Origin: Candidatus Raymondbacteria bacterium RIFOXYA2_FULL_49_16
GTDB lineage: Bacteria; Fibrobacterota; OXYB2-FULL-49-7; XYB2-FULL-49-35
Assembly (NCBI GenBank): GCA_001789205.1
Contig: MFYT01000064.1
Coordinates: 1 to 64,000 of the forward strand
DNA length: 64,000 nt
Direction: 5' to 3'
Shown: positions 35,059 to 37,726 of the stretch, piece by piece
Position numbering within the stretch: the stretch's first letter is position 1
Layout of the letters: the number at the start of each line of letters is the position of its first letter
Translations under genes and position numbers: made by a program
The notes under the pieces: generated by a model
The model's input: only the letters and a program-made list of their open reading frames with translations
Databases searched by the model: none
Told to the model about the DNA's origin: nothing

Positions 35059-35655
35059 TCAAAGTTCGGTCCGGCCCTCAAGGGCGCGGTATAAGGTCAC
35101 CTCATCGACATATTCAATGTCCGAACCAGCGGGAATGCCGCGCGCCATGCGCGTTACCTTGGCCCCGTTTTCCTTGAGAATACGCGTTAGGTATAGGGCC
35201 GTGTGGTCGCCCTCGGTGCTGGTGCCCGTGGAGAGAATAACTTCACAGTCAGACCCATTGACTCTCTGAAGCAAATGCTGGATATTCAGCTGTTCGGGCG
35301 TTATGCCGTCGAGTGGGGATATGGCGCCACCCAGCACATGGTAGAGGCCCTTGTAGTAGCCGGACCGTTCAATGGCAAGGATATCAACCGGCTTCTCGAC
35401 CACGCAGATGATTTTGGGGTTCCGGTTGGGCGCGCTGCAGATAGGACAGAGGTCTGTGTCAGCATAGCTGCCGCAGAGTGAACAGGGTTTAATCCCGGCT
35501 TTGGCGGCCACAATGGCCGCTGCAAGCTGGCCCGCCTCTTCAGCGGACCGCCGCATGATATGGAAGGCGAGCCGCTGCGCTGTTTTTCTGCCAACGCCGG
35601 GCAGCCGGGCAAGTTCGTCAATAAGGTTTCGGAAAGCCTGGGGCAAAAAGTCCAT
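35059..35655 (-). CDS. recR: recombination mediator RecR
   Basis: RecR, with RecF and RecO, loads RecA onto gapped DNA. The sequence shows the helix-hairpin-helix (ELARLPGVGRKTAQRLAFHI), the C4 zinc finger (CSLCGSYADTDLCPIC), and a Toprim domain (ICVVEKPVDILAIERSGYYK, VILSTGTSTEGDHTALYL). At 198 residues it is full length. Its start codon directly abuts the ybaB stop, a typical ybaB-recR junction. Confidence 0.97.
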   Translation of the reverse strand: MDFLPQAFRNLIDELARLPGVGRKTAQRLAFHIMRRSAEEAGQLAAAIVAAKAGIKPCSLCGSYADTDLCPICSAPNRNPKIICVVEKPVDILAIERSGYYKGLYHVLGGAISPLDGITPEQLNIQHLLQRVNGSDCEVILSTGTSTEGDHTALYLTRILKENGAKVTRMARGIPAGSDIEYVDEVTLYRALEGRTEL

Positions 35656-35970
35656 TTACATGAGACCCGGAATGTTTAAGCCGCCGGTGAGGCCCGACAT
35701 CTTTTCCTGAGAAGACTGCTGCGCCTTTTCGCGCGCGTTGTGGATTGCGGCCATGATAAGGTCTTCGAGCATGCCCACGTCAGAGGGGTCAACGGCCTCG
35801 GGCTTTATCGCAATGTTCGTGATTTCCATCTGACCGTTCATGGTGATCGTCACCATGCCGCTTGAGGCCTCGCCGATGAATTCCTGCTTTGCCAGGTCTT
35901 CCTGGGCCTTGAGCATTTCCCGCTGCATGCGCTGGGCCTGTTTCATAATGTCCTTCATGCCTTTTGCCAT
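35656..35970 (-). CDS. ybaB: YbaB/EbfC nucleoid-associated protein
   Basis: This 104-residue protein belongs to the small DNA-binding YbaB family that lies between dnaX and recR in many bacteria. The helical N-terminus (MKDIMKQAQRMQREMLKAQE) and the beta-sheet segment (GMVTITMNGQMEITNIAI) match the family. The ATG at 35970 follows AAAAGGAGTTTCA; longer in-frame starts would run through the heptamer-repeat island just upstream and are not real. Confidence 0.95.
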   Translation of the reverse strand: MAKGMKDIMKQAQRMQREMLKAQEDLAKQEFIGEASSGMVTITMNGQMEITNIAIKPEAVDPSDVGMLEDLIMAAIHNAREKAQQSSQEKMSGLTGGLNIPGLM

Positions 35971-35990
35971 TGAAACTCCTTTTGCTGGAA

Positions 35991-36075
35991 TGCAATTCCA
36001 GGAACGAGGATCGAGGCGCGAGGAACGAGAAAGTTCAAAGCAGCCTTCAGCCTCTAGCCTCATTCCTCGATCCTT
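35991..36075. repeat. two opposed arrays of heptanucleotide repeats
   Basis: From 36001 the heptamers GGAACGA, GGATCGA, GGCGCGA, GGAACGA follow each other; from 36041 CAGCCTT, CAGCCTC, TAGCCTC, ATTCCTC, GATCCTT. The two arrays are roughly inverse complements (GGATCGA against TCGATCC), so the island could fold back. It fills the dnaX-ybaB gap and overlaps the dnaX stop codon. Confidence 0.75.
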
Positions 36076-37726
36076 ACATTACTTCTCCCTTAAAAACATC
36101 GAGCACCTTGTGTATAACCGGCTCCTTGGCCATTGCCTCGTTGATATTCTTCTTTGGCCGCTCCGCGCTGGTAAGGTCTTTTTTTTCGAATTGAGGAAGG
36201 CTGGTTGAGAGATAATTCTTTGACTCTTCAGTGGACACCGCCTCAAACGAAAGCGCGCCGTCGTAGCCGCCGCTGTTTCTTAAAAAATCCTTGAGCACTT
36301 TCATGTTTTCAGGCTTGGTCAACTGTCCAAGCTGGAATTTTTGGTTGTCCGGCAGACCGATCCGCAGTTCTTTTTCGCTTGACGAGATGACGAATGAATA
36401 GGTAAGATAGGTGCCTACCTGCATGTTCTGGGGAATTAAAGCGGCCACCAGGCCCTTCCATTCGTGCTTGATCGAAGCAGGGTCAATAACCCGCGCTGCC
36501 GATGCCTGTACGCTTGGGCCTGGCAACGGCGGAGCAGGATGTTCGGGCTGGGAAACAGGCTCACTTAGGGGTTCACTCTTTTTTTTTACCTGTGGTAAAG
36601 CATTGGTCCCGCGAATAAACGCGGCAATGTCGATGGAGCTGTCCATGCGGGCCAATTTAAGAAGCGCGGCCTCCAGTTCAAACCGCGGCATTGAGCTGCG
36701 CGCAATGCTGGTTGAAAGACGCGATACCAATTCGAGCATGCGCAGCAGGTCGTTCCGGTTGAATGTATTAGCCTGGTTTCTGCAGTTTTCAAAGGTTTGC
36801 TGGGAAATGCCCAGGGTCTCGCTCCGGACGCCTTCGATGGAGGCGCAGAGAACGTTTCTGAGATGTTCCTCGAGCCCATTGGTAAATTCGGCAAGGTCGT
36901 ATCCTCCGGAGAATATGCCAGCAACATCGGCAAGCAGGCCCGCCTCGTCTCGCTCCCCTATCCGCGCAAGCAGGCCGCGGTACATGTCGGCATTGACCAG
37001 GCCGCAGACAGACCTGACCTCAGCCGCGGTAATGCCATTGGCGCAAAAGGGTATCACCTGGTCGAGGAGCGTGAGAGCATCGCGCATGGAACCATTCGCC
37101 TTGTGCGCCACCAGGGAGAGCGCCTCCTCCTCGTACGTTACCTTTTCGGCATCGCAGATCTGCTTGAGTCTCCCGAGAATGTCGGCCGGAGAAATACGCT
37201 TGAAATCATAGCGCTGCACGCGCGAAAGGATGGTTTCAGGAACACGCTGCGGTTCTGTGGTGGCAAAAATGAAAATAAAATTGGGCGGCGGCTCTTCGAG
37301 GCTCTTTAACAACGCGTTAAAAGCCTCCTTAGTGAGCATATGCACTTCATCGATGATGACAATCCTGAATTTTCCGCCTGCTGGAGTAAATCCTATCTGT
37401 TCGCGCAGTTCGCGGATATCGTCGATACCGCGGTTGCTGGCGCCGTCGATCTCCATGACATCGAGCCCCTGGCCGCTTTTAATGGAGCGGCAGGAAGAGC
37501 ATTCGCCGCAAGGGTGTGCCGTGGGTCCGGTCTCACAGTTGAGCGCCATGGCCAAAATGCGGGCAGAGGTGGTTTTGCCCACCCCGCGCGTGCCCGTAAA
37601 CAGGAAGGCGTGGGCAATGCGCTTTGTGGCAATGGCACGCTCAAGGGTGCGGGCCACATGCTTCTGGCCAACAAGATCATCAAAAGTGGATGGGCGCCAC
37701 TTGCGCGCAAGGACAAGATATGCCAT
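36074..37726 (-). CDS. dnaX: DNA polymerase III subunit gamma/tau
   Basis: DnaX is the clamp-loader ATPase. The 550-residue protein has the AAA+ Walker A motif GTRGVGKT (45-52), a zinc module (Cys64, Cys73, Cys76, Cys79), the IIDEVHML Walker B region (about 124-131), the SRV arginine-finger segment and domain III up to about residue 370. The tau-like C-terminus follows a linker. At the linker (codons 381-383, KKK) the gene has nine consecutive A residues, and a one-base slip leads to KE and an immediate TGA, giving a predicted 384-residue gamma-like form. It lies downstream of tRNA-Ser and SRP RNA, and upstream of ybaB and recR, all on the minus strand. Confidence 0.97.
   Translation of the reverse strand: MAYLVLARKWRPSTFDDLVGQKHVARTLERAIATKRIAHAFLFTGTRGVGKTTSARILAMALNCETGPTAHPCGECSSCRSIKSGQGLDVMEIDGASNRGIDDIRELREQIGFTPAGGKFRIVIIDEVHMLTKEAFNALLKSLEEPPPNFIFIFATTEPQRVPETILSRVQRYDFKRISPADILGRLKQICDAEKVTYEEEALSLVAHKANGSMRDALTLLDQVIPFCANGITAAEVRSVCGLVNADMYRGLLARIGERDEAGLLADVAGIFSGGYDLAEFTNGLEEHLRNVLCASIEGVRSETLGISQQTFENCRNQANTFNRNDLLRMLELVSRLSTSIARSSMPRFELEAALLKLARMDSSIDIAAFIRGTNALPQVKKKSEPLSEPVSQPEHPAPPLPGPSVQASAARVIDPASIKHEWKGLVAALIPQNMQVGTYLTYSFVISSSEKELRIGLPDNQKFQLGQLTKPENMKVLKDFLRNSGGYDGALSFEAVSTEESKNYLSTSLPQFEKKDLTSAERPKKNINEAMAKEPVIHKVLDVFKGEVM
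36578..36587 (-). promoter_or_regulatory. A9 slippage site in dnaX
   Basis: On the coding strand the sequence is GGT, nine A, GAGTGAA. In the normal frame it reads V-K-K-K-S-E. Adding one A by polymerase slippage, or a -1 ribosomal slip, reads V-K-K-K-E-stop. Thermus thermophilus dnaX uses an A9 run for transcriptional slippage, and E. coli dnaX uses A6G for -1 frameshifting. Confidence 0.6.

Follow-up and report, generated by a model that had tools for sequence, protein, structure and literature searches.

A conserved A run in the dnaX genes of Fibrobacterota as a probable site of programmed transcriptional slippage

In Thermus and E. coli the tau subunit of the replication machinery joins polymerase and helicase, gamma is a clamp-loader subunit that makes neither contact, and replication needs tau. 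To our knowledge, slippage in dnaX is represented by one measured case, that of Thermus, together with scattered predictions. In E. coli, gamma is made from a uniform mRNA by ribosomal -1 frameshifting at the heptamer A_AAA_AAG. The dnaX gene of Thermus thermophilus undergoes transcriptional slippage at a run of nine A residues, A9 (Larsen et al. 2000, as cited in PMC1088944 and PMC5009743). Two-ORF dnaX genes have been collected with GeneTack, nine of them with A10 and those of Chlorobi with A7-A9, and all are of the -1 type (PMC3711429). Among the texts available to our literature search no report of dnaX slippage in Fibrobacterota was found.

We analysed a window of 64,000 nucleotides (the whole stretch, positions 1 to 64,000 of contig MFYT01000064.1) whose source genome (G000) belongs to the phylum Fibrobacterota. 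A dnaX gene is present on its minus strand and can be read in the following ways.

36074-37726, minus strand: dnaX, 550-residue DNA polymerase III tau as the full-length reading (from the ORF, Pfam, TIGR02397 and E. coli structures)
36573-37726, minus strand: predicted gamma-like product of 384 residues ending in VKKKE, reached by one added A in the mRNA or by a -1 ribosomal shift
36077-36578, minus strand: tau-specific C-terminal part, missing from the short form (from the ORF reading)

The protein matches the Pfam families DNA_pol3_delta2, DNAX_ATPase_lid and DNA_pol3_gamma3, scores 435.7 bits against the NCBIfam model TIGR02397 (cut-off 250) and matches the E. coli gamma/tau structures in the PDB with E values of about 1e-76. 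Clamp-loader domains I-III are intact. The match to domain III (PF12169) ends at about residue 363, and therefore the predicted short form would retain domains I-III, as the initial annotation had held. The tau-specific part ends in EPVIHKVLDVFKGEVM, and similar tau tails are found in most families of Fibrobacterota.

The candidate slippage run and the stop codons behind it are located as follows.

36579-36587, minus strand: candidate A9 slippage run, codons gtA AAA AAA AAg (from the sequence and from homologous A8-A12 runs in the phylum)
36573-36575, minus strand: UGA closing the -1 (one-base-insertion) frame, from the frame reading
36565-36567, minus strand: UAA closing the +1 (one-base-deletion) frame after a 386-residue product, from the frame reading

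Codons 380-383 are GTA AAA AAA AAG, so that the last base of codon 380 is the first of the nine A's. The initial annotation had the length of the run right but placed the nine A's after codon 380; the run begins inside that codon, and position 36578 is a G. With one A added (or after a -1 shift) the reading becomes V KKK E UGA, a protein of 384 residues with the same KKKE end and stop that had been read from the sequence earlier; with one A removed (or after a +1 shift) it becomes V KK R V N P UAA, 386 residues. The two alternative frames are thus shut by UGA and UAA within 2 and 4 codons. Thermus had already been named as the precedent for such an arrangement. The two genes share an A9 in dnaX, a single-ORF tau, stops in both other frames just past the run and a genomic tRNA-Lys for AAG. 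However, the Thermus run is located seven-eighths along the gene (PMC1088944), whereas that of the window gene is located 69% along it and directly past domain III. Furthermore, slippage has been measured in Thermus, and here it is predicted from the sequence.

Comparison with relatives revealed a run of A8-A12 just past domain III in 102 dnaX genes, the window's included, from 34 genera and 11 families. Ten A's is the commonest length (76 of the 102), the positions span codons 375-428, and the runs fall in all three codon phases and encode two to four lysines. Retention of the run and of a nearby stop in relatives, proposed earlier as a check, is therefore seen across 34 genera; the dnaX genes of families f4 (L020, L120, L138, L139 and L184) and f14 (L173 and L174) have no run. 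The absence in these two families suggests that parts of the phylum can do without the short form. Chance origin of the dnaX run was considered and is ruled out by its conserved position.

Both off-frames are closed within a median of 4 codons past the run, compared with 25 elsewhere in the same dnaX genes, and none of 20,000 resamplings gave a value as low in this phylum-wide test. Codon usage at the run itself was followed in 36 species of a single genus. Every one of them has AAA at the three Lys columns that the run covers. In each of the other 13 invariant Lys columns AAG predominates, and among the Lys codons of these genes AAG is about twice as frequent as AAA; just 4 of 136 fourfold columns are invariant in the same set. 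At the run, it is the nucleotides that are conserved and not the amino acids.

Relative to the start codon, the tau frame is 0 in 81 of the 102 genes, +1 in 11 and -1 in 10. Genes with tau displaced consist of two ORFs (L132, L028, L175-L181, L017, L021, L023, L182, L183, L008, L009, L015, L016, L163, L171 and L172), and translation in their zero frame ends 0-5 codons past the run, or as many as 47 in genus g37. That the displaced tails belong to tau can be recognized from their matches: the -1 tails of L009, L015 and L028 match tau tails that other species carry in frame (1e-42 to 3e-83), the +1 tails of L008, L016, L163 and L132 do so at 1e-19 to 1e-87, and the short displaced tails of g8 and g37 show weak matches to in-frame tails. 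In g37 (L175-L181) the tau tail is shortened to 80-111 codons. Like the genes collected with GeneTack, these 21 two-ORF relatives have a poly-A run at the gamma/tau boundary and a displaced tau. The window gene differs from the GeneTack set in being a single ORF, and the phylum differs from it in that one-ORF, -1 and +1 forms interchange within Fibrobacterota and even within genera, the GeneTack genes all being -1. Annotation pipelines will truncate the proteins of the two-ORF genes, and dnaX in the phylum will be split or cut short by gene callers.

A tree built from domains I-III requires at least 10 changes of tau frame and at least 18 changes in the length of the A run. All seven genomes of g37 have tau in +1 with an A9, and five genomes of g8 and g9 have it in -1 with an A10; tau out of frame is the norm in the whole genera g37, g9 and g34. 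Since the displaced arrangement is common to whole genera, it is not assembly noise. Several of the two-ORF genomes are fragmented drafts in which an error in run length can look like a change of frame, and single displaced cases, such as L132 (A11, its siblings having A10), could be assembly errors.

Ribosomal shifts go in one direction only, and the authors of GeneTack therefore took a direction that changes as the sign of transcriptional realignment (PMC3711429). The tau frame in Fibrobacterota varies between 0, +1 and -1 while the run stays, which argues for polymerase slippage and not for a fixed -1 ribosomal shift. A survey of 2005 noted that truncating slippage adds no coding sequence that could be traced, which makes it hard to judge comparatively (PMC1088944). 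In Fibrobacterota such a comparison is possible because the tau tail is located in another frame in a fifth of the genes.

The recurrent change in run length is also what might be expected if the runs were phase-variation tracts, altering in DNA and not in RNA, and at least 18 changes on the tree mean that slippage at the level of DNA does happen. However, tau is essential (which is general knowledge), and a cell whose tau is out of frame should be unable to grow unless recoding takes place; yet in g37, g9 and g34 such genes are the norm. We therefore regard phase variation as highly improbable.

A bare A9 is not rare. Two are present in the window, against 2.5 expected from the shuffled window, and the genome has about 110 A9 positions and only 9 A10 positions; of 48 A runs sampled, 28 belong to the coding strand of an ORF. 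An argument from the rarity of A9 itself was dropped, since A9 is common in window and genome. Strong genomic avoidance of A9 and A10 was likewise discarded as support for slippage, the counts of A8, A9 and A10 declining smoothly. If A9 slips efficiently in this genome, many genes would be affected. Upstream of the run, no A run longer than 8 occurs in about 64 kb of dnaX sequence (first 56 genes read), and in a genome of 5.4 Mb (G007) the only A10 is the dnaX run.

Because nine A's fall short of the usual ten of the relatives, and because about 110 such positions exist, many of them in the sense strand, A9 alone need not slip much. It is conceivable that the A9 of the window is incidental or decaying, a low-slippage relic of an A10 ancestor, with tau as the sole product that matters here. 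This would fit with the commonness of A9 in the genes of this genome, with a length one short of the mode of the relatives and with the loss of the run in two other families. Against it, both off-frames of the window gene are still shut at once. Moreover, L008 and the seven g37 genomes have an A9 with displaced tau and must slip at A9 for tau to be made; these gene structures suggest that A9 is enough for slippage in Fibrobacterota. Decay of the site thus appears improbable.

The window gene also contains a potential signal for the ribosomal route.

36578-36584, minus strand: in-frame A_AAA_AAG heptamer, identical to the shift site of E. coli dnaX (from the sequence and comparison with E. coli)

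The resemblance to E. coli dnaX, with which the gene had been compared before, extends beyond this shared heptamer to the logic of the products and to 15 identical nucleotides, AAAAAAGAGTGAACC, at 36570-36584 of the window and at the E. coli frameshift site (L211). Ribosomal -1 frameshifting at A_AAA_AAG, with gamma made from a uniform mRNA as in E. coli, would account for these likenesses and for the same KKE-stop end, and pairing of Shine-Dalgarno type upstream of the run is slightly above background over the genera (rank 0.405, p = 0.016). However, only 3 of the 102 dnaX genes of the phylum, the window gene among them, have the heptamer in frame, and it is not kept in relatives. The 15-nucleotide identity is probably convergent. 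The stimulators of the E. coli site are likewise missing. No Shine-Dalgarno-like motif was found in the 25 nucleotides before the run of the window gene. The 69 nucleotides folded downstream of it yielded no stem-loop (z = +1.0), in agreement with the earlier remark that no strong one is visible, and downstream structure is absent across genera (rank 0.526, p = 0.64), whereas the downstream stem-loop of E. coli dnaX folds at -19.7 kcal/mol. Relatives with tau in +1 cannot use a -1 shift. A tRNA-Lys(CUU) is present in the genome of the window; a tRNA-Lys for AAG has been offered in a review by Atkins and colleagues as a possible reason why Thermus uses polymerase rather than ribosomes (PMC5009743). 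Ribosomal frameshifting as the source of gamma is therefore unlikely, and the preference of the initial annotation for a transcriptional route is borne out by the three tau frames, the scarcity of the heptamer, the lack of downstream structure and the tRNA-Lys(CUU). Both levels might also operate together, polymerase slippage being the rule of the phylum and a ribosomal shift adding to it in the species with A_AAA_AAG. Both signals are physically there, but stimulators of the E. coli type were not found, and we consider this combination slightly more doubtful than ribosomal frameshifting by itself.

Polymerase slippage may be assisted by structure in the nascent RNA. An IS element of Roseiflexus needs a stem-loop of the nascent RNA, adjacent on the 5' side, for its T5C5 motif to slip (Penno et al. 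2015, as described in PMC5009743). At the window locus, a candidate inverted repeat that might form such a hairpin abuts the A run on its 5' side; neither this hairpin nor the two-ORF relatives had been noticed in the initial annotation.

36585-36599, minus strand: possible nascent-RNA hairpin UUUACC-ACA-GGUAAA, adjoining the run and taking its first three A's

For the window gene alone, the hairpin is marginal and not significant, with a folding energy of -4 kcal/mol and a shuffle p of 0.053. Local folding of 24-nucleotide windows was scanned over the 34 genera, and it peaks where the 24-nucleotide window ends at the run, with a mean z of -1.4 at the start of the run and -2.0 four bases into it. 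At this peak 41-56% of the genera are below z -1.5, and at most upstream offsets the mean z is about 0; the mean of -2.8 at offset +32 has few genera behind it (12% below -1.5). At the level of genera, a rank test gives p of about 6e-6 and a shuffle test about 2e-6, both of which ignore shared ancestry. Stem sequences vary by genus (GCGCCTC/GAGGCGT-like, GACCTC/GAGGTC and CCCTG/CAGGG). Within one family, covariation is modest, with 76% of cells paired as compared to 32-64% when the alignment is slid and one clear compensatory pair (C-G to T-A), because both sequence and register of the stem vary among genera. The 5' hairpin likely enhances slippage in many members of the phylum, and possibly promotes it in the window gene. 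In contrast to the hairpin-dependent Roseiflexus motif, the A run of Fibrobacterota could slip alone, its hairpin is variable and the support is statistical.

Taken with the frame-independent conservation of the run, these comparisons make it probable that the A run serves dnaX as a site of programmed transcriptional slippage. RNA polymerase would copy the run, and the weak rA:dT hybrid would realign to give dnaX mRNAs with varying numbers of A. Messages with 9 (or 9+3n) A's would encode the 550-residue tau, whose C-terminal part elsewhere binds polymerase and helicase. A gamma-like subunit some 384-386 residues long would come from messages with other numbers, in which UGA or UAA follows after a few codons. 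A nascent-RNA hairpin just behind the run would promote the slip in many relatives and possibly in the window gene. We infer from the gene sequences that slippage occurs, how efficient it may be and that both proteins are made and used. The mechanism is thus a known one, that of Thermus, in a new phylum; the three-frame interchange and the 5' hairpin are unusual. The conservation points to a site of polymerase slippage, within a gene essential for replication, that is kept up phylum-wide, and it supports a role for gamma. The genes also differ in run length (A8-A12), in the frame of tau (three frames) and in the presence of a hairpin, and so offer a natural series for learning what determines the efficiency of slippage.

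Slippage gives access to every frame, and the frame that tau occupies in the genome would therefore be free to drift. Fibrobacterota dnaX can accordingly be pictured as a hairpin-assisted, frame-agnostic slippage cassette, in which one-ORF, -1 and +1 forms would interconvert by single-base changes in the run and both subunits would still be made. We hold the arguments for and against this broader picture to be evenly balanced. If it is true, an essential cellular gene would have a DNA reading frame that is effectively neutral at one point, and a nascent-RNA stem-loop would tune the slip, as in the IS element.

Outside the phylum, an A9-A11 near dnaX codon 400 is patchy among 79 loci. It is seen in Desulfobulbales-like, Ignavibacteriae-labelled and Bacteroidetes-labelled genomes, and no such run was found near codon 400 in the Myxococcales and Binatia loci among the 79. 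The 5' hairpins of other phyla are weaker (mean z -0.88, n = 16). Candidate sites are present in L042, L057, L059, L061, L070, L080, L082, L087, L094, L095, L100, L104, L108 and L110, from genomes labelled as Ignavibacteriae, Bacteroidetes, Desulfobulbaceae, Deltaproteobacteria and Planctomycetaceae.

At 35059-37726 of the window, dnaX, a ybaB-like gene and recR are arranged in a row, and dnaX and ybaB are also neighbours in E. coli (L211). Between dnaX and the ybaB-like gene, an imperfect inverted repeat (36007-36074; arms of 17 nucleotides, 82% complementary, with a 34-nucleotide spacer) extends to the last base of the dnaX stop codon and is possibly a processing or attenuation hairpin.
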